Shown piece by piece: positions 1-61,514 of a stretch of DNA of 64,000 nucleotides. Position 1 is the first letter of the stretch; each line of letters starts with the position of its first letter. Position numbers and translations under genes: made by a program. Below the pieces are notes generated by a model. That model did not search any database. It was not told where the DNA came from and was given only the letters and a program-made list of their open reading frames with translations. This stretch comes from Vulgatibacter incomptus (GTDB taxonomy: Bacteria > Myxococcota > Myxococcia > Myxococcales > Vulgatibacteraceae): assembly GCF_001263175.1 (NCBI RefSeq), contig NZ_CP012332.1, positions 2,663,501 to 2,727,500 on the forward strand, given 5' to 3'.

Positions 1-2
1 GT

Positions 3-2833: not shown

Positions 2834-2857
2834 GTCACGCTCCTTCTTCACGAGCTC

Positions 2858-4006: not shown

Positions 4007-4023
4007 GGCGAGTTCACCCCCGG

Positions 4024-5169
4024 TTAATCGAACGAGTCGCCCTTCTGCCGCCTCTGCCAGAATCGCCCAACCTCGCCGAGCCCGTCGCTGGCGTCGGCGG
4101 CGGCGCTCTTCGCCGCCATCTTCTCGACCCTCGCGCGGATCGCCTCCCACTCGGTCTCGGGGACCGAGGCGAAGGCCTCCACCACCATCGGATCGAATTG
4201 CGTCCCGGCGCAGCGCCGGATCTCACGGAGCGCCACGTCGAAGGGCTGCCCACTTCGATAGGGCCGGTCGGAGCGGATCGCGTCGAGGGTGTCCACCACC
4301 GAGAAGATCCGCGCCCCGATGGAGATCGCCTCGCCCGCCAGGCCCGCGGGATAGCCCTTTCCGTCCCAGCGCTCCTGGTGCTGCAGCACGATCGTCGAGG
4401 CGCCGGACAGGTACTCGATGGAGCGCAGGAGCCGGAAGCCGATGGCCGGATGCTCCTTCATCTCCTCCCACTCGGTCGGCGTGAGAGGGCCGGGCTTGAG
4501 CAGCACCGAGTCCCGCACCCCGATCTTGCCGACGTCGTGGAGGAGCGCGCCCATCTCCACCTCGTCGAGCTCCTCCTGCGGGAGACCGAGCGCCTCGGCG
4601 AGGCGTCTCGCATAGAGCGAGACGCGCCGGCTGTGCCACTGCGTCTCCATGTCGCGGTAGTCGAGGGCGTTGATCATCCCCTCGAGGAGGTCGCGCGTGC
4701 GCTCCTCCACGAGCGAGCGGAGGTTGCCGTTCATCCGCTGGAGCTCGGCGTTCTGCTCGTGGACCATGGCGGTGAGCCGCGCGTGCTGGCGCTTGAGCTC
4801 GCCGACCTCGTAGGCCTGGCGCACGGTGGTGATCAGGTCTTGGTGGTTCCACGGCTTGGAGAGCAGGCGGTAGACCTCTCCGCTGTTCACCGCATGGGCG
4901 GCGACCCGAAAGTCGTTCGCCGCGGTGAGCAGGAGCCTCGGGGCGTCCGGGCAGATCCGCCGGGCCTCGGTGAGGAACTCGACGCCGTTCATCCCCGGCA
5001 TCATGTAGTCCGAGATGATCAGGGTCGCCGGGCGCTCCCGGAGCTCGCCCAGGGCCTCCTCCGGCGTGTTCTTCCCCGTGACGTGGAAGCCCTGCGCATC
5101 GAGCACGCGCTGCAGCGCGCGCAGGATCAGCACATCATCGTCCACGACGAGGACGCGTCCCAGCTCCAT
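4024..5169 (-). CDS. HD-GYP response regulator (receiver + phosphodiesterase)
   Basis: Two-domain signalling protein of 381 aa. Residues 1-120 are a receiver with the acidic pocket VVDDD, phospho-acceptor Asp54 in SDYMMPG and the conserved Lys in LSKPW. A coiled linker (about 125-160) leads to an HD-GYP domain with HDVGKIG at 211-217 and the HQERWDGKGYP signature at about 264-274. By family it should hydrolyse cyclic di-GMP to GMP under control of an unlinked histidine kinase. The start is supported by GGGGAG upstream of the ATG. A promoter-like TTGGGA-17-TAGACT lies 35-63 bp upstream. Confidence 0.93.
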   Translation of the reverse strand: MELGRVLVVDDDVLILRALQRVLDAQGFHVTGKNTPEEALGELRERPATLIISDYMMPGMNGVEFLTEARRICPDAPRLLLTAANDFRVAAHAVNSGEVYRLLSKPWNHQDLITTVRQAYEVGELKRQHARLTAMVHEQNAELQRMNGNLRSLVEERTRDLLEGMINALDYRDMETQWHSRRVSLYARRLAEALGLPQEELDEVEMGALLHDVGKIGVRDSVLLKPGPLTPTEWEEMKEHPAIGFRLLRSIEYLSGASTIVLQHQERWDGKGYPAGLAGEAISIGARIFSVVDTLDAIRSDRPYRSGQPFDVALREIRRCAGTQFDPMVVEAFASVPETEWEAIRARVEKMAAKSAAADASDGLGEVGRFWQRRQKGDSFD

Positions 5170-5203
5170 GTCGGTGAATCTCCCCTCTCGTTACGAAAGT
5201 GGA

Positions 5204-5232
5204 AGTCTACTCCGAGAGCGGCCGGTTCCCAA
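5204..5232 (-). promoter_or_regulatory. sigma-70-like promoter for the HD-GYP gene
   Basis: On the minus strand TTGGGA (5227-5232) and TAGACT (5204-5209) are separated by exactly 17 bp, 35 bp upstream of the HD-GYP start. The same TAGACT -10 appears upstream of the PEGA gene near 37.26 kb. The remainder of the 257-bp gap to carD holds no gene. Confidence 0.5.
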
Positions 5233-5426
5233 CGGGCAAGTGACCCCTCGGAACCGCTCCCGTCCACCGGGACCGCAGCCGATCCCCGGCACACTTCCGG
5301 ACAGTCCCGAGCCGGAGGGGGATGCACCGCTCCGTTGCCCCGGTCGAAACCGCGTGGTACGCATTTCGGGTGCCAACCCAGGAAACGTCGGAGTCCCTGC
5401 CCGGGGCCGAGTCAACGGGCGCAATC

Positions 5427-6446
5427 ATGACCGCCTCCGAGATGCGCGCGGGCGATCGGGTCGTCTATCCGAAGCAGGGCGTCTGCCAGGTGCTCGGCCT
5501 CGAATCCAAGGAGATCGCGGGCCAGCGTCTCGAGTTCGTCTCGATGACGCGGGAGGAGGACAACGCCACCATCCTGGTCCCGGTGGCGAAGGTCCCCTCG
5601 ATCGGCCTGCGGCGGGTCGCGGACTCGACGGAGATCGTCGACGTCTTCGACCTCCTCGCCTCGTCCTTCGACGATCCCGAGCTCGACTGGAAGGTGCGCC
5701 ACCGCCTCCACGGCGATCTGCTGAGCGCCGGCGGGATCCTCGGCGTCGCCGAGGTGCTGAAGGCCCTCCAGGGGCTCGCCAACATCCGGCCGCTTCCGCC
5801 CAAGGAGCGGGAGCGCTACGACGCGGCTCGGCACCTCCTCGTCGCCGAGGTCGCGGTCTCGCTGGGCGTGCCCCTTTCGACGGCCGAGGACTTCATCGAC
5901 CTGGCGCTGCTGCCGCCGCCGGGGACGGTCAGGCCTGCCGCCAAGCCTCGCCGCCTCGCCGAGCTCCCGCCGAGGCCCAGGCTGCCGGCTCGCACCAGGG
6001 GCCGCCGCGGCGAGGGTGAGGAGCTCGAGGAGCTCGAGCTCGAGGAGGAGCTGGAGTTCGAGGAGGAGCCGATCGAGGCCGAGGCGGGCGAGGAGCCCGA
6101 GGCCGAAGCGGAGGAGCCCGCCGAGGAAGAGGTCGAGGAGGCCGGCCCCTCCCGGAAGGCCGCGGCGCGCGCTCCGAAGAAGGCGGCCGCCGAAGCCGGC
6201 AAGAAGGCGCCCGCGCGAGCGAAGAAGGCCGCGCCGGCGAAGAAGGCGGAGGAGACCGAGGCGCCGGAGAAGCCCGCTGCCAAGAAGCCTGCCGCGAAGA
6301 AGGCCGCCCCTGCGGAGAAGCCCGCTCCGGCGAAGAAGGCGGCCGGCGCGAGCAAGGCCGCGAAGGCCGAGGCTCCTGCGGCCCGCACGGCCCCCATGGC
6401 CGAAGCAGCCGCGAAGAAGCCGGCCGCTCGCAAGACCCAGAAGTAG
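5427..6446 (+). CDS. carD: CarD/CdnL-family transcription regulator with acidic linker and histone-H1-like tail
   Basis: Predicted RNA-polymerase-binding global regulator of about 339 aa. Residues 1-165 form a CarD_CdnL_TRCF domain (GDRVVYPKQGVCQV, then the helical region with DLLASSFDDPELDWKVRHR). Residues about 195-240 are almost continuous Glu. Residues 243-339 are Lys/Ala/Pro-rich KKAA and PAKKA repeats like eukaryotic histone H1. Myxococcus CarD has the same order but ends in an AT-hook HMGA-like region, so here a basic H1-like tail takes its place. The ATG at 5427 aligns with the usual N-terminus; no strong ribosome site is visible and the frame extends to 5322. The next gene starts 9 nt downstream. 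Confidence 0.88.
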   Translation: MTASEMRAGDRVVYPKQGVCQVLGLESKEIAGQRLEFVSMTREEDNATILVPVAKVPSIGLRRVADSTEIVDVFDLLASSFDDPELDWKVRHRLHGDLLSAGGILGVAEVLKALQGLANIRPLPPKERERYDAARHLLVAEVAVSLGVPLSTAEDFIDLALLPPPGTVRPAAKPRRLAELPPRPRLPARTRGRRGEGEELEELELEEELEFEEEPIEAEAGEEPEAEAEEPAEEEVEEAGPSRKAAARAPKKAAAEAGKKAPARAKKAAPAKKAEETEAPEKPAAKKPAAKKAAPAEKPAPAKKAAGASKAAKAEAPAARTAPMAEAAAKKPAARKTQK

Positions 6447-6455
6447 GAGGACGGC

Positions 6456-6995
6456 GTGATCCGCGTGGTGACCCTCGACGGCTTCCAGGACGGCGACGTC
6501 GACGCCCTCTGCAAGCTGCTGTTCCAGGCATTCAACCTCGGCGCCGAGCTCGCCGGGGAGCTGCCGCTGCCGGAGGAGGCCCGCCGCCAGGATGGCACCT
6601 ACGACGCCGCGCTGCTCCTCGACGAGGCCGAGACGGTGAAGCTCGTCGCGGACGACAAGCTCCTCTACGTGACGCACTCGTCGCTCTTCCAGCCGAGCGG
6701 ACCTGTCGGCACGCCGCCGACCCACGGCTTCGCACAGTTCGGCGGCCAGCGCGCGGTGGTGACCACGTCGCTCTTCCCCAAGGTGCTGGAAGAGGGCTCG
6801 GACGAGTTCCGGAAGCGCCTGGCCAAGCAGGCGGTCCACGAGATGGGCGCGCTGTGGGAGCTCCACTCCTGCATCGACCCCAAGTGCTCGATGCATCCAC
6901 CCTGGACCGAGGGCTTCGCTGCCAACCACGAGCCGGTGCTCTGCACGTTCTGCCGCGAAAAGAGCGAAGAGCGCATCCGGATGGCGAAGACCTGA
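6456..6995 (+). CDS. archaemetzincin-like protein with degenerate catalytic zinc site
   Basis: A 179-aa protein whose layout follows archaemetzincins. It has a VVTTSLF strand, then AKQAVHE, then the paired-cysteine region Cys139-x4-Cys144-x-Met and a terminal CTFC (163-166). The family signature HExxHxxGxxHC is eroded: His128-Glu129 remain, but the second zinc ligand is Ala132, the Gly is Glu135, and the third His is shifted by one (His137). The structural CxxxxC...CxxC zinc site is intact. It is therefore probably proteolytically inactive, perhaps a binding protein. The GTG start follows GGAGG closely and the gene is 9 nt after carD, so co-transcription is likely. Family assignment is by eye. 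Confidence 0.65.
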   Translation: MIRVVTLDGFQDGDVDALCKLLFQAFNLGAELAGELPLPEEARRQDGTYDAALLLDEAETVKLVADDKLLYVTHSSLFQPSGPVGTPPTHGFAQFGGQRAVVTTSLFPKVLEEGSDEFRKRLAKQAVHEMGALWELHSCIDPKCSMHPPWTEGFAANHEPVLCTFCREKSEERIRMAKT

Positions 6996-7098
6996 GCTCG
7001 GCGCTCCCACGCCGTTCCATCGCGGCGCGGGAGAGGGTCGTTGCCCGGGCGCGTAGGAGTGGAAATCCTACGAGCCTCCCCCAGCCAGGAGCGCCATC

Positions 7099-8826
7099 GT
7101 GGATCGCCTGCCCTCCCGCATCTTCAGCGACGAGATCGACCTCTACACGCGCACCTACGCCTCGCTGCTCCGCAGCACCGGCGAGGTCCGCGTCCGCGCC
7201 TTCGAGGAGGCGCATAGCTACAGCGACTCGAGCCTCCACGCCGGAGCGCGGGCGCTGACTCCCGACGTCGCGGCCTTCGCCTACAGCGCGGCGCGGCTCC
7301 CGGCCTGCATGGACAGCATCCGCCTCGTGGTGATGGGCCAGTCCCACGAGATCTTCGAGGCCGCCGGCTTCGAGGTGGGCGGCTGGGAGACGGTGCGCAC
7401 ACGCGGCCGCAGGCGCCCCTTGCGCTGGGACGGCGGCGAGGTCCTCGCCGCGTTCATCACCAGCACGAGCGACATTGACGATCTGGTGCCGATCCTCACC
7501 GCCTACCAGATCGAGTGGAACAAGCTGCATCACTCGCTGAGCCAGAGCACCCTCGGGCAGCTGCTGCAGAACGCCGACGCGTCCTCGCCGGTCTCGGTGG
7601 CCCCGGAGGAGCTCGCGACGGTCCTGGGCCTCGACGCCCAGGGCGTGGACACGTTGCAGGCGGCCTTCGGCGAGAGCTGGGATCGGGGGATCCGCGCCAT
7701 CGCCACGCGGCGGTCGGACCTCGCCGTGAGGCTCCTCGCGGGCTCGTTCTCCCAGTATCAGCGCGCTTCACAGAGATGGTGGACCGGCGTCGACGCGGGC
7801 TACCTGCAGGAGGAGAGCCCGAGGCGGCGCCCGGTATACTTCGTTTCCTCCAACACCCACTCGCTGTCGAACCTCCTCGGAGGCTACGCCCAGGCCCACC
7901 AGGGCGAGATCGTCGACTTCGCCCGGCGCAAGAACCCGGAGAACCTGGCGCCGCGCCTCGAGAGGGCGCTGGCATCCGGCGCCGCCGACGAGGCGAGCAA
8001 CATCCTCTACTACCTTCTCCGCGAGCTGATCCACGACGAGCATGGCGCGGCGAAGCGCCTCGAAGACGTGCTCCGCTTCGATGCGGAGAGCGGCATCTCC
8101 ACCCTGGCGAGCCCCGGCAAGATCGACGTCACCGCCCAGATCTTCGAGCTCTCCAAGCTGCGCCCGGAGCGCATCGACCCGCGCCTGCGCGAAGAGGGCC
8201 TCGAGCGGCTCTCGAAGAGCAACGCCGTCATCGTCAACATCGACTATCCGCTCGGCATGGCCGCGTACCACCATCTGTCGCGGCTGGGCCAGGGCGTGGG
8301 AGAGATCTTCGGCGTCTACGTTATGGGCAAGGCCGCGACGCTCAACGGCAGGGTCGGCGACGCGATGATCTCCACCGTCGCCTACGACGAGCACTCGCGG
8401 AACACCTACCTCCTCGCCAACTGCTTCAGCGCCGCGGACGTGCAGCCGTACATGACGGAGGGCACGGTCCTCGACAACCAGAAGGTCCTCACCGCCCGCG
8501 GTCCCTTCCTCCAGAACCGCCAGTACATGAGCACCTTCTACCGCGAGGGCTACACGGTCCTGGAGATGGAGGCGGGCCCCTACCTCGACGCGATCTACGA
8601 GCTCGTGAGCCCGGGCCGCCACCCGAACGATCAGATCGTCCACCTGTCGAACCTGACGCCGTTCGACGTGGGCATCCTCCACTACGCGTCGGATACGCCC
8701 TACTCGCGCAGGCAGAGCCTGCTCTCGAAGAGCCTCTCGTACTTCGGGATGGAGAGCACCTACGCCTGCGCGATGGCGATCGCGCGGCGGATCCTCCGCA
8801 CCGAGATCGCACGGCTCGGCGAGTAG
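7099..8826 (+). CDS. uncharacterised 575-aa protein with nucleoside-phosphorylase-like C-terminal half
   Basis: I do not recognise a named family. No signal peptide or membrane segment is seen, so it is probably cytoplasmic. The N-terminal 300 residues are mostly helical. From about residue 375 the pattern of phosphorylase-superfamily proteins appears: a Gly-rich strand (GEIFGVYVMGKAATLNG), GDAMISTVAYDEHS, and near the end GYTVLEMEAGPYLDA, like the MExA motif that binds the ribose in nucleoside phosphorylases and nucleosidases. The GTG start is preceded by AGGAG at a good distance. It lies 103 bp after the archaemetzincin-like gene on the same strand. A nucleosidase-like activity is only a suggestion. 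Confidence 0.75.
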   Translation: MDRLPSRIFSDEIDLYTRTYASLLRSTGEVRVRAFEEAHSYSDSSLHAGARALTPDVAAFAYSAARLPACMDSIRLVVMGQSHEIFEAAGFEVGGWETVRTRGRRRPLRWDGGEVLAAFITSTSDIDDLVPILTAYQIEWNKLHHSLSQSTLGQLLQNADASSPVSVAPEELATVLGLDAQGVDTLQAAFGESWDRGIRAIATRRSDLAVRLLAGSFSQYQRASQRWWTGVDAGYLQEESPRRRPVYFVSSNTHSLSNLLGGYAQAHQGEIVDFARRKNPENLAPRLERALASGAADEASNILYYLLRELIHDEHGAAKRLEDVLRFDAESGISTLASPGKIDVTAQIFELSKLRPERIDPRLREEGLERLSKSNAVIVNIDYPLGMAAYHHLSRLGQGVGEIFGVYVMGKAATLNGRVGDAMISTVAYDEHSRNTYLLANCFSAADVQPYMTEGTVLDNQKVLTARGPFLQNRQYMSTFYREGYTVLEMEAGPYLDAIYELVSPGRHPNDQIVHLSNLTPFDVGILHYASDTPYSRRQSLLSKSLSYFGMESTYACAMAIARRILRTEIARLGE

Positions 8827-8854
8827 AGGGCGCTCTCGCTCGCCCGCGCCAGGA

Positions 8855-10012
8855 CTACACGAGCGAGCGCACGATCCGCTCGCAGTCGTCGGCCGTGAAC
8901 GGCCTGGGGTTCGTGCGGTGCGAGGCGTCCTCCACCGCCTTCTCCACGATCGCCGGGATCATGTTCGGCACCACCCCGACGTCGGAGAGCTTGGGTGGGA
9001 TCCCCACCTCGCGGCAGAGGCTTTCGATCCGGGTGCACGCCCGGTCCGCCAGCTCGCGATCGCTTCGGCCCTTCCGATCCTCGCCCATGGCCTCGGCGAC
9101 CCGGGCGAACCTGGGATGGGCCTGGGCCTCGTTGAATCGGCAGACCGCGGGGAGCACGACGGCGTTGGTGAGGCCATGGTGCACGTCGGCCACCGCCCCC
9201 ACCGCGTGGGCGATGGCGTGGGCGGCGCCGAGGCCCTTGGTGAGCGCGATCCCGCCCATCATCGCGGCGGACATCATCTCCGTCCGCGAGGAGAGGTCGC
9301 CGCCGTTCTTCATGACGGCGGGGAGGGCCCTCGAGGCGAGGCGGATCCCCTCGATGGCCAGTGCGTCGGCGAGGGGGTGGTCGCCAAGGGAGACGTAGGC
9401 CTCGAGACAATGGGTGAAGGCGTCCATCCCCGTCCACGCGGTAGGCTTGGCGGGCAGGCCCGTGGTGAGCTCGGGATCCACGATCGCGCAGGTGGACATG
9501 AGCCGCGGGCTGAAGAGCACCGTCTTACGCTTGGTGTCGTCGAGGAGCACGACCGCGCTGCGGGAGATCTCGCTTCCGGTCCCGGCCGTGGTGGGGATCG
9601 CGATAAGCGGCGGCAGCTCCCCGGTGACGAAGCGCCCGCCGTCCGCGGCGTCGTCGTAGCGGGAGAGCGGCTGCGGGTGGTGGACCGCGAGGCGGATCGC
9701 ACGCGCGGTGTCGATCGGCGCGCCTCCGCCGATGCCCACGATGACGTCGGCGTCCAGCTCCCGGAACGCGGCGACGCCCCGCCACACGTCGGACTCGATC
9801 GGGTTGGAGTGGATCTCGGAGAAGACGCTGTGCGCGAGCTGCGCCTCCTCGAGCATCCTGCGGACGTGGTCGATGATCCCGGCGTCGATCACGCCGCGAT
9901 CGGTGACCACCAGGACCTTGAGGCCGCCCGCGAGGCGGACCTCCTCGGCCAGCTTGCCGATCGAACCCGCGCCCCAGACGACGCGGGTGGGAAACGAGAA
10001 TCGAGTGGGCAT
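8855..10012 (-). CDS. iron-containing alcohol dehydrogenase
   Basis: Group III metal-dependent alcohol dehydrogenase of 385 aa, oxidising an alcohol or reducing an aldehyde with NAD(P). Visible signatures: GIGGGAPIDTARAI for the nucleotide, TTAGTGSEISRSAVV, and the metal region with AHAIAHAVGAVADVHHGLTNA. Length and motif order are normal. It is 30 bp downstream of the glutamine-synthetase-like gene on the same strand and convergent with the 7.1-8.8 kb gene. Substrate cannot be told; the neighbouring aldehyde dehydrogenase suggests alcohol/aldehyde interconversion. Confidence 0.92.
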   Translation of the reverse strand: MPTRFSFPTRVVWGAGSIGKLAEEVRLAGGLKVLVVTDRGVIDAGIIDHVRRMLEEAQLAHSVFSEIHSNPIESDVWRGVAAFRELDADVIVGIGGGAPIDTARAIRLAVHHPQPLSRYDDAADGGRFVTGELPPLIAIPTTAGTGSEISRSAVVLLDDTKRKTVLFSPRLMSTCAIVDPELTTGLPAKPTAWTGMDAFTHCLEAYVSLGDHPLADALAIEGIRLASRALPAVMKNGGDLSSRTEMMSAAMMGGIALTKGLGAAHAIAHAVGAVADVHHGLTNAVVLPAVCRFNEAQAHPRFARVAEAMGEDRKGRSDRELADRACTRIESLCREVGIPPKLSDVGVVPNMIPAIVEKAVEDASHRTNPRPFTADDCERIVRSLV

Positions 10013-10042
10013 CTTCGGCCTTTCGCGCTCCCTGGAGGGAGC

Positions 10043-11617
10043 TCAGATGATCTCGAAATAGCGCTCGAGCTCCCAGCTCGTGACCGCGCGCTGGAACTGC
10101 CGCGCCTCCCACTCCCTCGTGCGCAGGTAGTGATCGACGAACTCCGCCCCGAGCAGCTCGCGGGCGTGCTCGCTCCGGTCCAGCCGCGCGATCGCCTCCT
10201 CGAGGGTCCGCGGGAGCGGGTGGGCTCCGCCGGAGGAGGCGTCGGCACGGGACGGCGGCGGCGGCTCGAGCTCCCGCTCGATGCCATGGAGGCCGGCGGC
10301 GAGGAGCGCCGCCATGGTCACGTAGGGGTTGGAGTCGGCGGCCGGCTGGCGGTGCTCGATCCTCGTGGCGTCGCCTCCGGTGATCACCCGGAGCGCGCAC
10401 GTGCGGTTCTCGTGGCCCCAGCTCGCGTTGAGCGGCGCCCACACGCCGGGCACGTAGCGTTTGTAGGAGTTCACGGTGGGGGCGACGAGGGCAGTGAGCT
10501 CGGGCATGAGCTCGACCTGTCCGGCGAGGAAGTGCCGCAGGGTGCGCGAGATCCCGCCGGGCGCCTTCGGATCCGAGAAGAGGTTTCGCTCGCCGTCGAG
10601 GCTCCACAGCGACTGGTGCACGTGCCCGGAGCAGCCGGGGAGCTCCGCGTTCCACTTGGCCATGAAGCAGGCCATCACCCCGTGCTTGCGGCAGAGCTCC
10701 TTGGCGGCGGTCTTGAACAGCGCGGCGCGGTCGGCCGCCTCGAGGATGTCCCCGTATTCGATGGCCGCCTCGTAGACGCCCGGCCCCGTCTCTGTGTGGA
10801 TCGCCTCGACCGGGATCCCGAAGCCGCGGCACCCCTCCACCAGCTCGTGGACCAGGGCGGCGTTCTCGGAGCTGCGCAGCCAGGAGTAGCCGAACATGCC
10901 TGGTGTCAGCGGGCGCAGGTCGCGGAAGCCCTTGCCGTGCACGCTCTCGGGCGTCTCGCGGAAGAGGAAGAACTCGAACTCGTAGCTGTACTTCGGCGCG
11001 AAGCCGAGCTCGCGGGCGCGGTCGGTCACCCGGCGCAGGAGCGCCCGGGGCGAGGCCGGATGAGGCCGGTCGCGCTCGTCGTAGAGGTCGAGGAGGAAGG
11101 CCGCCGTGCCGGGCTCCCAGGGGATCGTGCGAAAGGTCGAGAGGTCCACACGGGCCTTTGCGTCCGGGTAGCCCGTGTGCCAGCCCGTGACCTGCACGTT
11201 GTCGTAGAGGCGGTCCGAGCAGTCCCAGCCGAAGACCACGTCGCAGAAGCCCATGCCGCTCTTGGCAGCCGACGCGAGCTTGTCGAGGGAGACGTATTTG
11301 CCGCGGAAGACACCGTCGACGTCGAAGAGCCCCAGCTTCGCCGTGCTGAGCCCCTCCGCCCGGAGCCGCCGCTGCAGGCTCTCCGGCCCAGCGCCCTTCC
11401 CCGCCCGCTCAGAGCGTGTGAAGAAATCGGTCCCGCGTGAAGCGGGCCCGACTTCTTCAGCCGCGCTTCGCGCGATCGCACTTTTCTTTGGCTCCGCCTC
11501 CGGCTTCGCGTGCGCAGAACCGCTCTTCTTTTTGTCTGCTCCGCCTTCGGCTCCGCGAGGCTGCCTGGCCCTGCGCGCCTGCGTCCCCGACCCCCCGCGA
11601 TATCGCCTGGTCGCCAT
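10043..11617 (-). CDS. glutamine-synthetase-family ligase with a repeat-encoded N-terminal insert
   Basis: ATP-dependent gamma-glutamyl ligase fold, 524 aa. Family blocks are present: YEFEFF, TETGPGVYEAAI, SGHVHQSLW, NSYKRYVPGVWAPLN, ENRTCALRV and the C-terminal RIEHRQPAADSNPY. Sequence style suggests a glutamate-amine ligase of the PuuA/GlnT type rather than housekeeping GlnA. The only credible start is the ATG at 11617, with GGGAGG 5 nt upstream. Residues about 21-70 are encoded by an in-frame copy of the structured dispersed repeat (11409-11557), giving a basic, low-complexity insert before the true domain begins near residue 80. The Fe-alcohol dehydrogenase follows closely. Confidence 0.88.
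   Translation of the reverse strand: MATRRYRGGSGTQARRARQPRGAEGGADKKKSGSAHAKPEAEPKKSAIARSAAEEVGPASRGTDFFTRSERAGKGAGPESLQRRLRAEGLSTAKLGLFDVDGVFRGKYVSLDKLASAAKSGMGFCDVVFGWDCSDRLYDNVQVTGWHTGYPDAKARVDLSTFRTIPWEPGTAAFLLDLYDERDRPHPASPRALLRRVTDRARELGFAPKYSYEFEFFLFRETPESVHGKGFRDLRPLTPGMFGYSWLRSSENAALVHELVEGCRGFGIPVEAIHTETGPGVYEAAIEYGDILEAADRAALFKTAAKELCRKHGVMACFMAKWNAELPGCSGHVHQSLWSLDGERNLFSDPKAPGGISRTLRHFLAGQVELMPELTALVAPTVNSYKRYVPGVWAPLNASWGHENRTCALRVITGGDATRIEHRQPAADSNPYVTMAALLAAGLHGIERELEPPPPSRADASSGGAHPLPRTLEEAIARLDRSEHARELLGAEFVDHYLRTREWEARQFQRAVTSWELERYFEII
11409..11557 (-). repeat. structured dispersed repeat, copy 1 (inside a coding region)
   Basis: About 149 bp, minus orientation, nearly full length. 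It matches copy 2 at 60764-60910 along its whole length: two AGCCG(A/G)AGGCGGAGC units, a small CGCGCGAAGCGCG hairpin, then a 17-bp imperfect stem GAAGAAGTCGGGCCCGC with GCGGGACCGATTTCTTC. It lies wholly within the glutamine-synthetase-like reading frame and keeps it open. Confidence 0.85.
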
Positions 11618-11693
11618 GAGCGCCTCCCGGCTCCCACGGGGTGCGGCCGGGCGAGCCGGCGCTTACGTTAGGCACCCGGATCGGAGCCGAAAA

Positions 11694-12392
11694 GTGACCC
11701 TGCCGCGCCTCCTCCTGCTCAAGGCGGGAAGCACCCACCCCGACGTGGTCTCAGCCTGCGGCGACTACGACGAGTGGTTCCGGCGCGCGCTGCCGGGAGG
11801 GCAGTCGAGGTGCGAGACGGTCGCGGTATCGGAAGGCGCCGAGCTCCCGTCGCCCGAAGGCTACGGCGGGGCGATCATCACCGGCTCGCCCTCCGGCGTG
11901 CGCGACGAGGCGCCCTGGATGGAGCGGCTCTCCGTCTGGGCCCTCGGCGCCGCCGACGGGGGCCTTCCGATCCTGGCGGTCTGCTTCGGACACCAGCTCC
12001 TCGGCGAGGCCCTCGGCGGGCGGGTCGAGGCCTCGCCCCGTGGATGGGAGCTCGGGAGCGTCGAGGTGGATCTCTCGCCGGAAGGCCGGGACGATCCCCT
12101 CTTCGACGGCCTCCCCCCTCGCCTGGTGGTCGGAGCGACCCACCGCGACGAGCTCGTCCGTCCGCCGTCCGGGCTCGGCGCGCGTCGCCTGGCGTCGAAT
12201 GCCCACTCCCCATGGCAGGCGTTCTCCGCAGGGCCGCGGATCCGCGCGGTGCAGTTCCATCCGGAGGTGGACGCGGCGATCGCGAAGCGGGTGCTCGCCG
12301 TCCACGGGCTCGACGAACCCGTGCGCCAGAGCGACCACGGCCGGAGGATCCTCGCCAATTGGGATCGTCACTTCGTGCGACGGTGTTCCTGA
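11694..12392 (+). CDS. class I glutamine amidotransferase-like protein
   Basis: A 232-aa triad amidotransferase domain. The nucleophile elbow is VCFGHQLLGEALGG, and the second part of the triad is QFHPEVD near the C-terminus, so the Cys-His-Glu set is complete. It resembles stand-alone GMP-synthase-like amidotransferases that hydrolyse gamma-glutamyl amides. The GTG at 11694 was chosen because translation immediately gives the core strand LPRLLLLKAG; upstream frame passes through repeat copy 1. It is divergent from the glutamine-synthetase-like gene and convergent with the aldehyde dehydrogenase, which suggests a shared gamma-glutamyl-amine theme, unproven. Confidence 0.85.
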   Translation: MTLPRLLLLKAGSTHPDVVSACGDYDEWFRRALPGGQSRCETVAVSEGAELPSPEGYGGAIITGSPSGVRDEAPWMERLSVWALGAADGGLPILAVCFGHQLLGEALGGRVEASPRGWELGSVEVDLSPEGRDDPLFDGLPPRLVVGATHRDELVRPPSGLGARRLASNAHSPWQAFSAGPRIRAVQFHPEVDAAIAKRVLAVHGLDEPVRQSDHGRRILANWDRHFVRRCS

Positions 12393-12426
12393 TGGCTCGG
12401 CGGCTGCTTGATCTCGGTGGCGAGCG

Positions 12427-13854
12427 TCAGGCCCTCCCGGAGAGCACCAGCACCCGCGGCTCGGTGTAGTCCTCCATCGCGTAGCTCAGTCCTTCGCGAC
12501 CGAGCCCAGACGCCTTCACCCCGCCATACGGCATGTTGTCCTGACGGAACGTGGGATAGTCGTTCACGATCACACCGCCGACCTCGAGCTCCCGCCAGGC
12601 CTTCCGCGTGCGGGCGAGGCTGTCGGTGAAGACCCCGGCCTGCAGGCCGTACTGCGACTCGTTCACCGCTCCGAGCACGGCGTCGAAGTCATCGAAGGGC
12701 TCGAGGAGGATCACCGGCCCGAAGACCTCCTCACAGGTGATCCGGGCGTTCGAAGGCACCTTCTCGAGGATCGTGGGCAGCACGAAGGAGCCCCGCCGAC
12801 CGCCGCCGTGCACCGTGGCGCCGCCCCACTTCGCCTCGTCGATCCAGCTCTCGATCCGCTTGGCGTGCCCCTCGTCGATGACGGGCCCCACCACCGTGTC
12901 CTCCCGGGACGGGTCGCCCACCTTCAGCGCGTCGACCTCGGCGCGGAGCGTCTCGCGGAACGCCTCGTACACCGACGCCTCCACGTAGATCCGCTGCACG
13001 GCGATGCAGACCTGACCGGCGTAGACCATGCCGCCGTGGGCGCAGCGTCTCGCCGCCCAGGCCAGGTTCGCGTCTGCGCAGACGATCGCCGCGGCGTTTC
13101 CCCCCAGCTCGAGCACCACCTTCGCGCGCCCCGACTTCGCCTTGAGGGCCCAGCCGACGGGCGCGCTCCCGGTGAACGAGAGGATGGCGACCCGCCGATC
13201 GGTGGCGAGGATCTCGGCCACCTCGTTGCCGCAGGGCACCACCTGGAACAGGCCGTCGGGCACGCCCAGGCCGTGGACGATCTCCGCCAGGATGCAGGCT
13301 GCCGAGGGCGCCTGGGGAGGCGGCTTCCAGATCACCGGCGACCCGACGGCCAGCGCGGGCGCCACCTTGTGTGCGCCCAGGTTGAGCGGGAAGTTGAACG
13401 GGGAGATCGCGACCACCACGCCCGCGGGAACGCGCCGGGTGATCGCCTCGTAGCCGACCGTGGCGGGGTCGAGGTCGATTGGAACCACCTTGCCCGCAAA
13501 GCGGGTCGCCTCCGCCGCCGCCAGCGTGAAGGTGGCGATCGCCCGCTTCACCTCGGCGCGGGCGATGGCGATCGGCTTGCCCGCCTCGTCGCAGATCGAT
13601 CGCGCGAGCTCCTCCGCGCGCTCGCGGATCCCGTTCGCGACCCCTTCGCAGAGCTCCCGCCGGCGCCCGGCCGGGAGCGCCTGTCCCGCGCGCCTCGCCG
13701 CGAAGGCCGCCGCGAGCGCGCCCGCAGCCTCCCCCGGTCCCGCCTGCGAAACCCGCGCGACCACGCGGCCGTCCCAGGGGCTGCGGATCTCCCGAACCTC
13801 GTTTCCCTCGGGGAAGGCACCGGAGATGTAGGGGCGCCTGAGCGGAACGTTCAT
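12427..13854 (-). CDS. aldehyde dehydrogenase family protein
   Basis: NAD(P)-dependent aldehyde dehydrogenase of 475 aa, normal family length. Visible features: the cofactor region SPFNFPLNLGAHKVAPALA, the general-base glutamate in VLELGGN, the catalytic cysteine in YAGQVCIAVQR and the EEVFGPV motif. It is close in style to non-phosphorylating glyceraldehyde-3-phosphate, lactaldehyde and sulfoacetaldehyde dehydrogenases, so the substrate is open. ATG at 13854. Its neighbours encode a ligase, an amidotransferase and an alcohol dehydrogenase. Confidence 0.92.
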   Translation of the reverse strand: MNVPLRRPYISGAFPEGNEVREIRSPWDGRVVARVSQAGPGEAAGALAAAFAARRAGQALPAGRRRELCEGVANGIRERAEELARSICDEAGKPIAIARAEVKRAIATFTLAAAEATRFAGKVVPIDLDPATVGYEAITRRVPAGVVVAISPFNFPLNLGAHKVAPALAVGSPVIWKPPPQAPSAACILAEIVHGLGVPDGLFQVVPCGNEVAEILATDRRVAILSFTGSAPVGWALKAKSGRAKVVLELGGNAAAIVCADANLAWAARRCAHGGMVYAGQVCIAVQRIYVEASVYEAFRETLRAEVDALKVGDPSREDTVVGPVIDEGHAKRIESWIDEAKWGGATVHGGGRRGSFVLPTILEKVPSNARITCEEVFGPVILLEPFDDFDAVLGAVNESQYGLQAGVFTDSLARTRKAWRELEVGGVIVNDYPTFRQDNMPYGGVKASGLGREGLSYAMEDYTEPRVLVLSGRA

Positions 13855-13960
13855 CCTTGGGCCTCCGAATGCGCTCCTATCTACCAGACCGTGGAGGCGC
13901 GCGCCGGCCCGCCGCTCGACCCGAATCGGGATTCACAGCGTGTGCGCCGCGTCGGCCCCT

Positions 13961-15229
13961 TCAGCGGCACTCCGTGTCGCAGATCCCGTCGTTGGGAAGA
14001 CACGCCCTGGCGACCTCGGTGCCGGCGTCGTCCCGGATCGACTTGCAGAAGAAGCCCTTCGCGCACTCCCGCTCGGCACACGAGGGAGCGCAGGCGCCGG
14101 CGTGGCAAGAGCCGCCGGGGCCGCAGGCCGGATCGAGCCCCTCCGTTCCGCACGGGGCGCAGTAGCGGGCGACGCGGTCGTCGTAGGCGGGCACGCAGCG
14201 GTTCCCCTCGCAGGCCTCGCAGATCGCGCAGACATCGGAGGTCTGACAGACGCCGGCGCCCGAGGCGCAGAGGCGCTCCGGCCCGCACCAGGTGTTGGGT
14301 GGGCAATCGGCGTTCGTCTCGCAGCCGTCCCGGCAGGCCCACCGCTGGTTTTCGTAGTTGCAGAGCTGCCCCATCGGACAGTCCCTCGTCGACGCGCACG
14401 TCGGCACGCACTCTCCCGCCCCGCCGGGAGCCGTTCGGCAGACCTTCGTCCGCGCACAGTCGTCGTCGGTCGTGCAGGTCTGCACCTTCTTGCAGATCGC
14501 GTTCACGCAGCGCATGCCCTGGGCGCAGTTGGCGTCGCCGAGACAGCTCGGCACGCACTCGAGCCTGGCGGGATCGCAGGCCTTGCCGGCGACGCAGCCC
14601 GGCTGCCGCGCGACGCAGCGGCGTGTCGCCGGCTCGCAGAGCTGGTCCCGTCCCTCACAATCGGCCGTGCTGGTGCACTCCTGCAGGGTGTCCGGGTTGC
14701 AGGTCGCGAGGGAGTCGCAGCTCTCGTCGGGGACGCACTGGCCATCGGCGCAGTGGGTTCCATACAGGCAGGGATTGCTCGTGTCGCAGGCCCTTCCGCA
14801 GAAGGCGGTCGCGGCGCCGTCCAGCCGAATGCAGGCGTTGCCCGCTCCACACTCCTCGTCGCGCTCGCACCTTCCGCAGTAGGGCGTCGGGACCTTGCAG
14901 ACCCGGATCGGCACGTCGCACCACTGTCCTCGACCGCAGTCGTAGCTCGTGGTGCACCCCGGCACCTTCGAGACGCAGCGGCCGCTGAAGGGGTTGCACT
15001 TGAGGTCGCCCTGGCAGGAGTCGTCGGAGGTGCAGATGCAGATGCGCCGCCCCGGATCGCAGACCAGGCCCGACCGGCACTCTGCGCGGACCGAGCACGC
15101 CTCGCCCGCCTCGAGGAGCTGCGAGCCCCCTTTGGAGCCGCCGGCCTCGGGCGCGGTGCATGCGGCGAACCCGAGGGTTGCAGCCAACACGCCGATCCAG
15201 AGCCGGAATCCCGTCCTCATCATCCCCAC
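13961..15229 (-). CDS. large cysteine-rich lipoprotein with repeated CxxDxxC modules
   Basis: About 420 aa. The N-terminus is a lipoprotein signal (hydrophobic run then LGFAAC lipobox), so it should be anchored in the outer or inner membrane facing the periplasm or surface. The rest is about a dozen short disulfide-rich modules of the type C-x(5)-C-x(4)-C-x(6)-C with Asp-Asp or Asp-Ser before the second Cys, as in secreted myxobacterial Dickkopf-like proteins. No catalytic motif. A promoter TTGACT-18-TACGAT is 12 bp upstream of the start. Function unknown. Confidence 0.85.
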   Translation of the reverse strand: MGMMRTGFRLWIGVLAATLGFAACTAPEAGGSKGGSQLLEAGEACSVRAECRSGLVCDPGRRICICTSDDSCQGDLKCNPFSGRCVSKVPGCTTSYDCGRGQWCDVPIRVCKVPTPYCGRCERDEECGAGNACIRLDGAATAFCGRACDTSNPCLYGTHCADGQCVPDESCDSLATCNPDTLQECTSTADCEGRDQLCEPATRRCVARQPGCVAGKACDPARLECVPSCLGDANCAQGMRCVNAICKKVQTCTTDDDCARTKVCRTAPGGAGECVPTCASTRDCPMGQLCNYENQRWACRDGCETNADCPPNTWCGPERLCASGAGVCQTSDVCAICEACEGNRCVPAYDDRVARYCAPCGTEGLDPACGPGGSCHAGACAPSCAERECAKGFFCKSIRDDAGTEVARACLPNDGICDTECR

Positions 15230-15240
15230 CGCCTGAGGCG

Positions 15241-15270
15241 ATCGTACGGCCGCCCGGAAATCCCAGTCAA
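15241..15270 (-). promoter_or_regulatory. sigma-70-like promoter for the cysteine-rich lipoprotein
   Basis: On the minus strand TTGACT (15265-15270) and TACGAT (15241-15246) with an 18-bp spacer, just upstream of the lipoprotein start. The short TTTGACACCAGCCA repeat lies immediately upstream of this -35 box. Confidence 0.5.
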
Positions 15271-15276
15271 TCGGCC

Positions 15277-15299
15277 CAGGTGGCTGGTGTCAAACGGTC
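15277..15299 (-). repeat. short TTTGACACCAGCCA repeat, copy 1
   Basis: A 23-bp stretch identical to positions 44046-44068, read on the minus strand as GACCGTTTGACACCAGCCAC plus CTG. It sits 7 bp upstream of a -35 box and directly abuts structured repeat copy 6. Confidence 0.75.
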
Positions 15300-15378
15300 A
15301 GAGCGGGTGAGAAGCGCTCCTTTTCATTTGCTCGCCTCCGGCTCGCGAGAGTTCGTGACTTCTTCACGAACTCTCAGT
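15298..15378 (-). repeat. structured dispersed repeat, copy 6 (partial, with terminal hairpin)
   Basis: Minus orientation. It shows the GCGAGCCGGAGGCGAGCAAA core and ends in CGCTCTGA. Its other end is a perfect 12-bp hairpin, GAGAGTTCGTGA (15347-15358) with TCACGAACTCTC (15364-15375). The same hairpin, with a compensated base pair, caps copy 3. It lies between the divergent lipoprotein and AI-2E genes. Confidence 0.75.
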
Positions 15379-15382
15379 CCCC

Positions 15383-16645
15383 TTGGTTGACCCCATCGTT
15401 CGCGGCCTTTACAAGTTCGACGTGAAGCCAATCCGCACCGTCGGAAGCCCCTCCTCCGCGCCGAGTCGCGCGGTCCTGGTCCGCGTCGCCGCCCTCTGGC
15501 TCGCGATCGCCGTGGCGCTCGTGGCCTTCCGGGGCGTCCTCTTCACCTTCGGCGGAGCGCTCCTCATCGCGTACCTCGCCGAGCCGATCGTCACCCGGCT
15601 CTCTTCGAAGCCGATCGGCGGAAGGACGCTTCCCCGCTGGGCGGGGATCCTCGCCGTCTACGCGGCGCTCTTCCTCCTCGTCTACGCCTTCTCGATCGCG
15701 GCGCTCCCCCAGCTCTATCGCGAGCTCGTCCGCCTGGTGGCAGAGGCCCGGGAGCTCCTGAACGAGCTCACCCCCGCCAAGATCTCGGCCTATACCCGGG
15801 CCGCTGAGGAGTGGCTCGCCTCCCGCGGGATCCCGATCGTCTTCGGCGACGGCGAGCCGCTACCCGCTCCGTCCGACTCCGGCCCGAAGCTCCACTTCGA
15901 CCTCGAGGCCACGCTCCGATCGATTGCCCTGACGAGCTCCACCTGGGCCCGCACCCACCTGATGGAGGTGGTCGGGGTCTCGCAGCGGATCGTCACGCAC
16001 CTCGTGGGCGGGATCTTCCAGCTCTTCTTCATGCTGATGGTGGCGGCCTTCGTCCTCCTCGACCCGGCCCCGATCCGCTCGTTCTTCCGCAGCCTCGTCC
16101 CCGTGCAGTGGGGCGCGGGCTTCGATTCCCTCCTCGCGCGGATCGACGACAAGCTCGCCGGCGTGGTCCGGGGGCAGATCCTCATCTGCCTGGTCAACGG
16201 GGCGCTCACCCTCGTCGGCCTGCTGATCCTGAAGGTGAAGTTCGCCCTGATCCTCGCGACCCTGGCGACCTTGCTCTCCTTCATCCCGATCTTCGGGACC
16301 GTGATCTCGACCGTCCCCATCGTGCTGGTGGCCCTCACCCAGTCATTTGGTACGGCCCTCGGGGCGCTGGGATGGGTCCTGGGAATCCACGGCCTCGAGG
16401 CCTACCTGCTGAACCCGCGGATCCTCGGCACCTCGGCCCGGATCCACCCGGTGGTGATCGCCTTCGCCCTCCTCGCCGGGGAGCGGACCTTCGGCTTCGC
16501 CGGCGCCCTCTTCGCCGTTCCCGTGGCCTCGATCCTCCTCGCGGTGTTCCTGCACTTCAAGGAGCGGGCGGATCGGCTCCAGGCGGAGGAGCTGGGCGCC
16601 GACGTCCAGTCCGACGCCAAGGAGAGCGCCGAGGCGGGCTCCTGA
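15383..16645 (+). CDS. AI-2E family transporter (YdiK/PerM-type membrane protein)
   Basis: About 407-420 aa polytopic inner-membrane protein. The early helix pair (VRVAALWLAIAVALVAF and the VLFTFGGALLIAYLAEP motif), a long periplasmic-type loop, then four or five C-terminal helices with FIPIFGTVIS and LNPRILG are typical of the AI-2E/PerM exporter family. Substrate is not known for most members. The start may be TTG 15383 or GTG 15422; neither has a clear ribosome site, and repeat copy 6 ends just upstream. The C-terminus is a charged tail. Confidence 0.9.
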   Translation: MVDPIVRGLYKFDVKPIRTVGSPSSAPSRAVLVRVAALWLAIAVALVAFRGVLFTFGGALLIAYLAEPIVTRLSSKPIGGRTLPRWAGILAVYAALFLLVYAFSIAALPQLYRELVRLVAEARELLNELTPAKISAYTRAAEEWLASRGIPIVFGDGEPLPAPSDSGPKLHFDLEATLRSIALTSSTWARTHLMEVVGVSQRIVTHLVGGIFQLFFMLMVAAFVLLDPAPIRSFFRSLVPVQWGAGFDSLLARIDDKLAGVVRGQILICLVNGALTLVGLLILKVKFALILATLATLLSFIPIFGTVISTVPIVLVALTQSFGTALGALGWVLGIHGLEAYLLNPRILGTSARIHPVVIAFALLAGERTFGFAGALFAVPVASILLAVFLHFKERADRLQAEELGADVQSDAKESAEAGS

Positions 16646-18488: not shown

Positions 18489-18593
18489 CTCGACGGACAT
18501 TCGCCTCCGAGCCCGCCCTTCGCTACCGGCGAAGCACGAGCGTTCGATTCCTGACCCTTCCATGGAAATGAAAAATCTGCAAGATCGCCCCTA

Positions 18594-18692
18594 GCGAGCC
18601 GAAGGCGAGCAAACGAAAGGGAGCGTTTCTCGCGCGGAGCGCGAGATGAAGGGCTCGCTCCCGCATCGCGGGGGCGAGTCCTTCACACGCTC
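18594..18692 (+). repeat. structured dispersed repeat, copy 4
   Basis: Plus orientation. GCGAGCCGAAGGCGAGCAAA, then a perfect small hairpin TCTCGCGC-GGA-GCGCGAGA, then the long stem GAAGGGCTCGCTCCCGC with GCGGGGGCGAGTCCTTC. The stem sequence differs from the other copies on both arms, yet pairing is kept. It lies between pal and the PBP1A gene. Confidence 0.8.
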
Positions 18693-18743
18693 CGAGACTC
18701 CGGCTTTCCCACCCCCGTTCAGCAGACTACCATCCAGGTGACG

Positions 18744-21222: not shown

Positions 21223-21309
21223 TGGTGCCCAGGAGAGGACTCGAACCTCCACGGTGTTGCCACCACTAGACCCTGAATCTAGCGTGTCTACCAATTCCAC
21301 CACCTGGGC
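21223..21309 (-). tRNA. tRNA-Leu (anticodon CAG)
   Basis: 87 nt on the minus strand. Acceptor arm GCCCAGG pairs with CCTGGGC, anticodon stem CTAGA/TCTAG encloses loop TTCAGGG (CAG), a long variable arm GTGGCAACAC is typical of leucine tRNAs, the T arm has GGTTCGAGTCC, and the 3' CCA is encoded. A promoter (TTGACT-18-TAGAAC) is just upstream. Confidence 0.96.
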
Positions 21310-31109: not shown

Positions 31110-31178
31110 GGCTGCTCCTGCCATCGGGCGAAGCCCGAATGGTGATTAATGAAAAATACCTATCATGACGCAGCCAAT

Positions 31179-31304
31179 GAGAGCTCGTGAAAATTCACGA
31201 GCTCTCGCGGAGCCGAAGGCGGAGCAACGGAAAAGCGCGATCGCGCGAAGCGCGGCGAAGAAGTCGGGCCCGCTCCTGCGGGACCGATTTCTTCGAACGC
31301 TCTG
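31179..31304 (+). repeat. structured dispersed repeat, copy 3 (with terminal hairpin)
   Basis: Plus orientation. It opens with a perfect 13-bp hairpin, GAGAGCTCGTGAA (31179-31191) with TTCACGAGCTCTC (31194-31206). Then comes GGAGCCGAAGGCGGAGCAAC, the CGCGCGAAGCGCG hairpin and the long stem GAAGAAGTCGGGCCCGC with GCGGGACCGATTTCTTC. It ends in ACGCTCTGCG next to the stop of the DsrE-like gene. Confidence 0.85.
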
Positions 31305-31313
31305 CGCCAAGAA

Positions 31314-43063: not shown

Positions 43064-44102
43064 AGGTCCGCTGGAGGCGCGTCACGAGGGAGTCGACGAG
43101 GGGGGGATCGCTCGTGTGGAAGGCGAGGTCGTCCCGCCGCACCAGCGCATACGACGACTGCTCGGAGAGGAAGAGCAGGAGCTCGTGGCGGCAGCAGGGA
43201 TCCTCCGCGTCGACGTAGACCGGAGTGAGAGCCGGATGCACCAGGGCCGAAGGGCCCCGCCTCCCGAAGAGGTGGACGCCCCACGAGCCCGCTCCACGGG
43301 GGAGGGCCTCGAGGAGGGGAAGCCAGTCGGCGTGCTCCTTGGGCCCGGACGTGGAAAAGACCAGCCCCCTGCCCTCGCCCTCCCGCGCGACCTCTCGGAG
43401 GATCTCCGCGCGGATCGATCGAAACAGGGAGGGGCTCATGGCGAGGCGCCGGCTCGAGGGATCCTCGGGCCCCCCGGGGTCGAGGACGTGGTCGACGCTC
43501 TGCCAGAAGTCCAGGTTCCGCTTCCGGAGCTCCACCGCCGGCGAGAGCCGGCCGAGGCGGCTGCGCTCGCGGCAGCGGTGGAGGAGCGAGTCCACGTCCC
43601 GGCCGTCGCGGCCGTGGGTGGCTGCGCCGGGCTCCAGGGCCACGACCTGGGCGCCGGCGATTCCGCGGCTGGCGAGGTCCTCCTCCGCGGCGGCGAGGGC
43701 CCTTCGCTGGAACATCAGCGCGCCGAAGTGATCCGTCTCGGGGAGCAGCACGACGAGCTCGTCGTCCGAGAGCCTCGCCACCACGTCCACGTCGCGGGCC
43801 ACCCGGCCGACCGCGCCGGCGATCCCGCGGAGCAGGGAGCGGGCGGCCTCGGCACCCAGCGTCTTCTGGAGCATCGGGAGCGCGTCCACCCGGAGGAGCA
43901 CGAGCGCAAAGGAGCGCCCATAGCGCTGGGCGCGCTGGACCTCCTTCGCCGCATATTCCCCGAAGAACGACGGCCCATGCGCGCCCGTCTCGGGATCGCG
44001 CAGGTCCGGGAGACGAGCCGGATGCACGGGCCGAGTCTCGTTGCGCAGGTGGCTGGTGTCAAACGGTCCCTCGGCTCCGGGCATCCAGGGCGGGCGCGTC
44101 AA
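43044..44102 (-). CDS. degenerate GGDEF-domain protein
   Basis: Up to 352 aa. Residues about 38-170 have the GGDEF domain layout (GPSFFGEYAAKEVQRAQRYGRSFALVLL, then ARLSDDELVVLLPETD), but the signature GGDEF is LSDDE, so diguanylate cyclase activity is unlikely. Residues 180-352 are an unassigned region. The start is uncertain: TTG 44102 overlaps the upstream stop by 4 nt, an ATG lies at 44084 and a GTG at 44027; codons for GPFDTSHL come from the short TTTGACACCAGCCA repeat. The C-terminus overlaps the downstream gene by 20 nt. Confidence 0.72.
   Translation of the reverse strand: MTRPPWMPGAEGPFDTSHLRNETRPVHPARLPDLRDPETGAHGPSFFGEYAAKEVQRAQRYGRSFALVLLRVDALPMLQKTLGAEAARSLLRGIAGAVGRVARDVDVVARLSDDELVVLLPETDHFGALMFQRRALAAAEEDLASRGIAGAQVVALEPGAATHGRDGRDVDSLLHRCRERSRLGRLSPAVELRKRNLDFWQSVDHVLDPGGPEDPSSRRLAMSPSLFRSIRAEILREVAREGEGRGLVFSTSGPKEHADWLPLLEALPRGAGSWGVHLFGRRGPSALVHPALTPVYVDAEDPCCRHELLLFLSEQSSYALVRRDDLAFHTSDPPLVDSLVTRLQRTYDLHTF
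44046..44068 (-). repeat. short TTTGACACCAGCCA repeat, copy 2
   Basis: Identical over 23 bp to 15277-15299, minus orientation. It falls in the N-terminal coding region, or just upstream if GTG 44027 is the start, of the degenerate GGDEF gene. Within it TTGACA is followed at 17 bp by GAGACT. Confidence 0.75.
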
Positions 44103-48535: not shown

Positions 48536-48565
48536 AGAATAATCGGGTCCCGGATCGGACCTCAA
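48536..48565 (-). promoter_or_regulatory. promoter upstream of the 48-kb membrane-protein gene
   Basis: TTGAGG (48560-48565) and TATTCT (48536-48541) on the minus strand, 18-bp spacer, 36 bp upstream of the GTG start. The third short repeat abuts the -35 box, as it does at 15.3 kb. Confidence 0.5.
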
Positions 48566-48566
48566 G

Positions 48567-48586
48567 ATGGCTGGTGTCAAACGGCC
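48567..48586 (-). repeat. short TTTGACACCAGCCA repeat, copy 3
   Basis: GGCCGTTTGACACCAGCCAT on the minus strand, matching the other two copies except at the ends. The hpt stop codon TGA lies inside it. Confidence 0.7.
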
Positions 48587-60585: not shown

Positions 60586-60762
60586 GTGTCCGAGAAGATC
60601 GACCTCCAGAACCTCGACCGCCGGCTCGCCGAGCGGCTGATCCGCGCCGGCAAGCTCTCCCAGTCCGAATGGGACAAGCACCTGCAGACGCTCCCCGACT
60701 CCGCCGACCAGGGCGCGGCGATCGAGGCGGAGCTCGAGACCGGGATCATCGAACGCGATTGA
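60586..60762 (+). CDS. small charged protein (58 aa), unknown function
   Basis: Begins at GTG 60586 with AAGGA upstream. Helical, acidic and basic residues alternate (SEKIDLQNLDRRLAERLIRAG); no hydrophobic core segment or signal. I do not recognise it. It has one of the best promoters in the window and is followed at once by repeat copy 2. Confidence 0.6.
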   Translation: MSEKIDLQNLDRRLAERLIRAGKLSQSEWDKHLQTLPDSADQGAAIEAELETGIIERD

Positions 60763-60763
60763 C

Positions 60764-60910
60764 CGCGCAGCCGAAGGCGGAGCAAACGAAAAGAAGAGCG
60801 TTTCCGCGCACGCGAAGCCGAAGGCGGAGCAACGCAAAAGCGCGACCGCGGGAACCGCGGCTGAAGTAGTCGGACCCGCTTTTGCGGGGCAGACTACTTC
60901 ATACGCTCGA
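60764..60910 (+). repeat. structured dispersed repeat, copy 2 (full length)
   Basis: Plus orientation, 147 bp, aligns end to end with copy 1. Two AGCCGAAGGCGGAGCAA units, the CGCGG-GAA-CCGCG hairpin, then GAAGTAGTCGGACCCGC with GCGGGGCAGACTACTTC. Compared with copy 1, changes on one arm are matched on the other in both hairpins. It ends 11 bp before the DUF1844 start. Confidence 0.88.
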
Positions 60911-60920
60911 GGGGGAAGAC

Positions 60921-61370
60921 GTGGCCGAGCGCGAGGAAGACAAGCCTTTCGTAGTCCACGACCGCCGCCGCTTCACCGAGACCGGCGAGACGAGACCCGA
61001 CGCCGATCGCGAGACCGCTCCGCCTCCGGGTGCGGCGCGTACCGCCCATGAGGCGATCCTCGGCGGGCCAAAGGGGCCCAACCCCGAGGACGAGCCCGTG
61101 GCCGCAGGTGAGCCGCGCGAGGCGGCGCCCATCGATTTCACCACCTTCGTCTTCTCGCTGGGATCCTCCGCCCTCATGCACCTGGGCGAGGCGCCCCACC
61201 CCGAGACCGGCGAGCCCATGAAGAACCTGGAGCTGGCGAAGGAGACCATCGATCTCCTCGCGATGCTCCAGGCGAAGACCAAGGGCAACCTCACGCCGGA
61301 GGAGGGTCGCTTCCTCGGCGCCCTCCTCTACGACCTTCGGCTGCGCTACGTCGACGCGGCCAAGAAGTAG
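60921..61370 (+). CDS. DUF1844 domain protein
   Basis: About 149 aa from GTG 60921, preceded by GAGGGGGA. Charged, disordered N-terminus (about 1-70), then the DUF1844 block FTTFVFSLGSSALMHLGEAP, NLELAKETIDLLAMLQAKTKGNLT and the helix FLGALLYDLRLRYV. Role unknown in this family. The TTG start at 60882 would lie in repeat copy 2 and is rejected. Confidence 0.85.
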   Translation: MAEREEDKPFVVHDRRRFTETGETRPDADRETAPPPGAARTAHEAILGGPKGPNPEDEPVAAGEPREAAPIDFTTFVFSLGSSALMHLGEAPHPETGEPMKNLELAKETIDLLAMLQAKTKGNLTPEEGRFLGALLYDLRLRYVDAAKK

Positions 61371-61387
61371 TCGCTCCCTTCACCACG

Positions 61388-61475
61388 CAGAGCGAGTGAA
61401 GAAAATCGGTCCCGCCTGAAGCGGGCCCGACTTCTTCATCCGTGCTTTTCCGTGGCTCGTCCTACGGCTCCGCGA
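61388..61475 (-). repeat. structured dispersed repeat, copy 5
   Basis: Minus orientation. The long stem GAAGAAGTCGGGCCCGC with GCGGGACCGATTTTCTTC, followed by CTCGCTCTGCG, and at the other end CGGAGCCGTAGGACGAGCCA, a diverged form of the AGCCGAAGGCGGAGC unit. It lies between the DUF1844 gene and the membrane glycosyltransferase-like gene. Confidence 0.75.
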
Positions 61476-61514
61476 AGACGATGCTCGCCCTTTCCGGTGC
61501 GAGCGCCGCCTTCG

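Follow-up and report, generated by a model that had tools for sequence, protein, structure and literature searches.

In the window analysed here, a 64,000-nucleotide stretch of the Vulgatibacter incomptus genome (bases 2663501-2727500 of a single contig of 4,350,553 bases), a short gene closes with a TGA stop that abuts a folded repeat, and the gene that follows (60921-61370), whose product presumably resembles DUF1844, has a second and diverged repeat of the same kind behind it. All six elements that a first-pass annotation had placed in the window are present. The complete form is built from hairpin A, unit B, hairpin C and hairpin D, in this order from the 5' side, and the elements are given here in window positions:

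60760-60762, +: in-frame TGA stop closing the short upstream gene (translation ...ELETGIIERD*); abuts the element start
60763-60908, +: double-unit copy lacking hairpin A; the B-C unit twice, followed by hairpin D and the right end ...ACGCTC
60846-60860, +: small hairpin C of the 60763-60908 copy, CCGCGGGAACCGCGG; predicted fold
60862-60901, +: long hairpin D of the 60763-60908 copy, TGAAGTAGTC...GACTACTTCA; predicted fold and covariation
31178-31304, +: complete single-unit copy; TGA at 31178-31180, hairpin A at 31179-31206, then unit B
31242-31254 and 31257-31294, +: hairpin C and hairpin D of the 31178-31304 copy, followed by the right end
11405-11560, -: double-unit copy without hairpin A
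15298-15380, -: copy keeping hairpin A (about 15355-15378) and the TGA, with hairpins C and D largely lost
18589-18699, +: single-unit copy without hairpin A, with hairpin D in its fully changed form GAAGGGCTCGCTCCCGC/GCGGGGGCGAGTCCTTC
61383-61480, -: diverged copy behind the gene at 60921-61370

The TGA of the copy at 31178-31304 is no gene stop. A covariance model trained on 47 copies matched five of the six elements strongly, at 11409-11510 (-), 31206-31305 (+), 18592-18695 (+), 60811-60911 (+) and 61387-61474 (-), with E-values from 7e-19 to 2.5e-9, and gave the sixth (15298-15348, -) only 0.025 because most of the right half of this decayed copy is gone. Four of the five strong matches belong to the training alignment, so these scores arise partly by construction, and the independent weight lies with the blastn search described below. 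The six loci of the first-pass annotation are therefore real, but its layout has been revised: the copies at 11405-11560 and 60763-60908 are double-unit, the 5' hairpin A had been overlooked, and the long stem, described as 17 bp, has 16 predicted pairs broken by mismatched positions. The element matches no family above the gathering score in an Rfam search of the window, where the sole match was a tRNA gene (21226-21309, -). The window also holds a 26-base repeat (...CAGGTGGCTGGTGTCAAACGG...) three times in one orientation (15274-15299, 44043-44068 and 48561-48586), which reads TTGACACCAGCCA on the minus strand and the core of which occurs nowhere else in a 1.26-Mb sample; this repeat may be a shared regulatory site.

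Anatomy, copy number and distribution of the family

A complete copy spans about 130-190 bp and consists, between a left CTGA and a right nGA, of hairpin A, one to three B-C units, hairpin D and a terminal ACGCTC. Hairpin A starts right after the TGA and reads GAG[CT]T[TC]GTGAAGAAtTCAC...GAGCTCTC; unit B is GCGgAGCCGAAGGCGGAGC (GCC-GAA-GGC), followed by a spacer and by hairpin C, CGCGCGAAGCGCG; and hairpin D (TGAAGAAGTCGGgCCCGC..GCGGGaCCGATTTCTTCA) leads through ACACGCTC to a second TGA. Once TGA is counted as flank, the ends of the element are inverted repeats of about 14 ungapped bases. A profile search of a 1.264-Mb sample (29% of the genome, made up of 1.2 Mb of genome stretches and the window) returned 86 copies or fragments, with one B unit in 50 of them, two in 17 and three in 4, and three spacer subtypes are visible in the copy alignment. 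Hairpin A is missing from many copies, and its loss is apparently exact at 2162115, where TGA is followed by TCGCGGAGCC.

Extrapolation from the sample gives about 296 copies or fragments genome-wide, against the six known from the first-pass annotation, and blastn, which is independent of the covariance model, returned at least 40 full copies and 223 candidates. A strict long-hairpin pattern gave 80 genome matches on one strand and 76 on the other, most of them the two readings of a single hairpin, and its reversed control had no match genome-wide. The flanks of the dispersed copies are unrelated to each other. Outside this genome, blastn detected no copy in 59 relatives, and the covariance model, run with stricter filters on 193 Myxococcota genomes (its own included), gave one marginal match elsewhere (G034, E 1.1e-4), which was judged unconvincing as the sequence resemblance is local only. 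In addition, a 24-base pattern has one exact match in a contig of Lachnospiraceae, which seems to be a coincidence within coding sequence. By these searches the family is seen in its own genome alone, and absence from the others therefore means that it was not found with these tools.

Gene order in a same-family relative (G001) points to insertion at two of the loci. There, the glutaryl-CoA-dehydrogenase-like protein has one more residue, and 9 bases after its stop the next gene begins, whereas the element and about 75 more bases separate the two genes in V. incomptus; similarly, the neighbours of the 60763-60908 copy overlap in the relative and lie 158 bases apart here, nearly all of which is element, with the reservation that both comparisons span different genera and do not represent true sister-strain empty sites.

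Paired changes in the hairpins

In the 47 aligned copies, 98.4% of the cells of hairpin D are paired and 8 of its 16 pairs show changes on both sides. The covariation score of the structure was 0.129 compared to 0.045 in shuffles, none of 500 shuffles reaching the observed value; the pair count uses helices 1 and 3, and the whole-structure score includes a misplaced small-hairpin helix that can only lower it. Hairpin A also covaries, at positions 5-7 from the loop. Additionally, G-U pairs exceed A-C in the outer stem of hairpin D when read on the gene-sense strand (27 and 2, respectively), although 19 of the 27 fall at one position and are possibly inherited. The compensatory arm changes first noticed in the long stem of the window copies are thus real and significant against shuffles. 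Selection on the folded form, proposed at the same time, is plausible from this covariation and likely, but it is not proven because template switching between the arms could also yield concerted changes.

Such arm-to-arm copying during replication would make the covariation uninformative on selection, and it is compatible with the other readings considered here. Template switching would fit the stretches of neighbouring paired changes seen in several copies (e.g. TGAATCAATCGG/CCGATTGATTC), and also the fact that hairpin D has more doubly changed cells (34) than unpaired ones; the inner stem position 6, however, is still mismatched and uncorrected in most copies, and we regard this origin of the matching arms as possible but rather unlikely.

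Placement at TGA stop codons and mode of spread

The left edge is TGA in 33 of the 39 copies with hairpin A and TCA in only one. In 27 of these 33 the upstream gene ends in frame on this TGA (frames of 150 codons or more and a strong coding score, called with a simple caller made for the analysis), or in 26 of 32 unique cases, because one locus is counted twice through an overlap of the contig ends. In this regard, the two ends of the contig appear to repeat each other (about 1-16393 and 4334161-4350553 of G000:C1; L037, L134): over 5 kb tested near the contig end, the sequence matches bases 8340-13340 with 100% identity, and the offset between the identical stretches points to about 16.4 kb of unmerged overlap between both ends of a circular contig. 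The share expected at stops is 19% when all intergenic TGAs count as usable (p 8e-15), 48% when only those in 100-bp zones behind genes do (p 8e-5) and 81% when only those in the first 30 bases behind co-oriented genes do, and the excess vanishes once the usable zone is restricted to the 30-50 bases that directly follow a co-oriented gene. The preference for stops is therefore strong relative to the general null and moderate relative to the one based on 3' zones, and with the narrowest null it is gone.

Both edges carry a further signature. The left TGA is preceded by C in 26 of 33 cases, compared to 336 of 605 stop TGAs (p 0.005), and nGA follows the right end in 37 of 57 cases (n being T in 22 of them and C, A and G in 5 each; p 3e-27), which makes the right edge C-n-G-A once the last base of the element is included; around complete copies, TGA forms a direct, one-way repeat. 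Copies overall lie mostly behind genes, and those without hairpin A are mostly off stops (25 of 38 placed copies). The upstream proteins tested are full length: several of ten compared with NCBIfam reach the profile ends (e.g. 399/400, 377/378), and the alignment of the glutaryl-CoA-dehydrogenase-like protein with three relatives runs to its last residue (392 of 392). Because complete copies are usually found precisely on the TGA stop of a gene, the family has apparently spread without damage to proteins.

All these data suggest, with a probability of roughly 60%, a family of non-autonomous palindromic mobile elements which insert in one orientation at CTGA, probably through a single-strand mode like that of HUH/IS200-REP systems, and which are tolerated at stops. 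Mobility itself, proposed earlier as a REP/MITE-type element moved in trans, is well supported by the high number of copies, their unrelated flanks and defined ends, the confinement to one genome and two split gene pairs; the HUH-like mode is an inference. The label fared less well, since the element is not a REP with a GTAG/CGTC tag, nor can it be called a demonstrated DDE MITE, and a cognate transposase was not found. An enzyme acting in trans would recognise the hairpins on one DNA strand and cut at C-n-G-A, which would account for the constant direction of the TGA relative to the element. Insertion at CTGA would be tolerated mainly where the gene survives, above all at a TGA stop, which the left flank would keep intact; hairpin A would later be lost, and B-C units gained or lost through recombination or slippage. 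Changes at mRNA ends or in translation, if any, would only follow from where the element sits. If this is correct, many genes have gained a folded 3' extension from the stop codon on with their protein unchanged, a natural experiment on the effects of stop-codon hairpins on translation and mRNA ends, and a short motif like CTGA would offer mobile DNA a safe harbour within a GC-rich genome densely packed with genes.

A classical MITE, with terminal inverted repeats GAG[CT]T[TC]GTGAAGAA / GAGCGTGTGAAGAA, mobilised by an IS5-type DDE transposase and with TGA...TGA as a 3-bp target duplication, is an unlikely alternative to this single-strand reading. The element does share with IS5-type MITEs inverted ends starting with GAGCGTGT and a possible 3-bp flank repeat: the ends align without gaps when TGA is taken as flank, TGA stands directly on both sides of many complete copies, and a decayed IS5-like element in this genome starts with TA-GAGCGTGT. 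However, a symmetric element of this type inserting at TGA should show TGA and TCA equally at its left edge, which the counts above contradict, and flanks other than TGA differ between left and right (GGA/CGA, TCA/AGA); the one-way target orientation that sets the element apart from such MITEs may also stem from selection for co-orientation with the gene. Furthermore, no parent insertion sequence was found among the six DDE_Tnp_1 matches of the genome, the one family searched, as none is flanked by element ends, and the IS5-like remnant was rejected as a parent because only GAGCGTGT is common to both. The remnant, a decayed transposase gene at about 2385-3500 of L139 (reverse strand), has the end TAGAGCGTGTCGACAG and is followed by an apparent TnpB fragment.

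Insertion directed to stops, in which a safe-harbour element docks on UGA codons throughout the genome by sensing the end of a translated gene or by using CTGA that is single-stranded there, appears less probable still.

Least probable is an RNA module with a function at gene 3' ends (as a terminator, an mRNA stabiliser or a hairpin that stalls translation), maintained by selection and dispersed only secondarily. The compensatory changes, the excess of G-U over A-C on the gene-sense strand and the position of copies on or just behind stops would agree with it, as would a report, cited in PMC12306157, that REP hairpins within 15 nt of the stop cause ribosome stalling in E. coli. Against it, the element is missing behind the orthologous genes of the same-family relative, many copies without hairpin A do not lie behind stops, and the G-U excess comes mostly from one stem position. 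The bidirectional transcript-end structure offered by the first-pass annotation finds no backing either: in two 20-kb stretches, a consensus terminator scan gave total hits at shuffle level and hairpin D was not reported as an intrinsic terminator (GC stem and T run), and one copy splits genes that are directly adjacent in the relative. A transcript-end role is unsupported here, though conceivable.

Related systems and candidate enzymes

One described likeness is to the structures associated with class 3 TnpA-Y1, which have a CnGA foot and number in the hundreds in a genome (Solibacter has about 600; PMC6006769). The element has C-n-G-A directly beside the hairpin and again at its opposite end, with CTGA in 26 of 33 TGA-flanked left edges and CnGA in 37 of 57 right edges, and occurs in hundreds of copies, a likeness in feet and copy number. 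REP/REPIN sequences with their RAYT transposases are also similar, as high-copy intergenic palindromes with hairpins at both ends, located mostly behind genes in a genome with RAYT-like genes; the element differs from them in having CTGA as its left edge and CnGA as its right edge in place of a GTAG (GT[AG]G) or CGTC foot, several hairpins with a repeated middle unit, and no copy adjoining a RAYT-like gene. The BOX element of Streptococcus pneumoniae (boxA-boxB(n)-boxC; PMC3049150) is likewise composite and folded, with fixed ends between which the number of middle units varies, but differs in sequence and target, docking at stop codons not being reported in the portion of that paper available to us.

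The genome encodes six Y1/RAYT-like transposases of one family (PF01797, NF033573), three of which were scanned and are weakly similar to REP-associated transposases. Their proteins read NHLH...YVLGNAR and not the NHVH...YVxxEQ of class 3, and no class 3 TnpA was found with PF01797 and NF033573, which detect this six-member family only. The search for a RAYT/Y1 partner, suggested together with the first description of the repeats, has therefore yielded candidates but no direct one, as no element lies within 1.5 kb of any of the six genes. A search of the genome for IS200-type TnpA gave nothing above the cut-off, and orphan inverted ends bracketing a gene were not recognised in the 1.264-Mb sample. 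Instead of the element, at least three of the six Y1/RAYT-like genes have upstream the motif GGGTGACAC, which is rare elsewhere in the sample; ACATGGGTGACAC-type motifs precede those at L031, L033 and L036 (of paralogues L031-L036) and are possibly recognition sites of these genes' own. Lastly, the genome contains four nearly identical (99.8%) insertion sequences of about 1.38 kb (L098-L101) with 25-bp inverted ends CCTAGCAGGTTGCTGAAGAACTCTG, which have probably been active recently.
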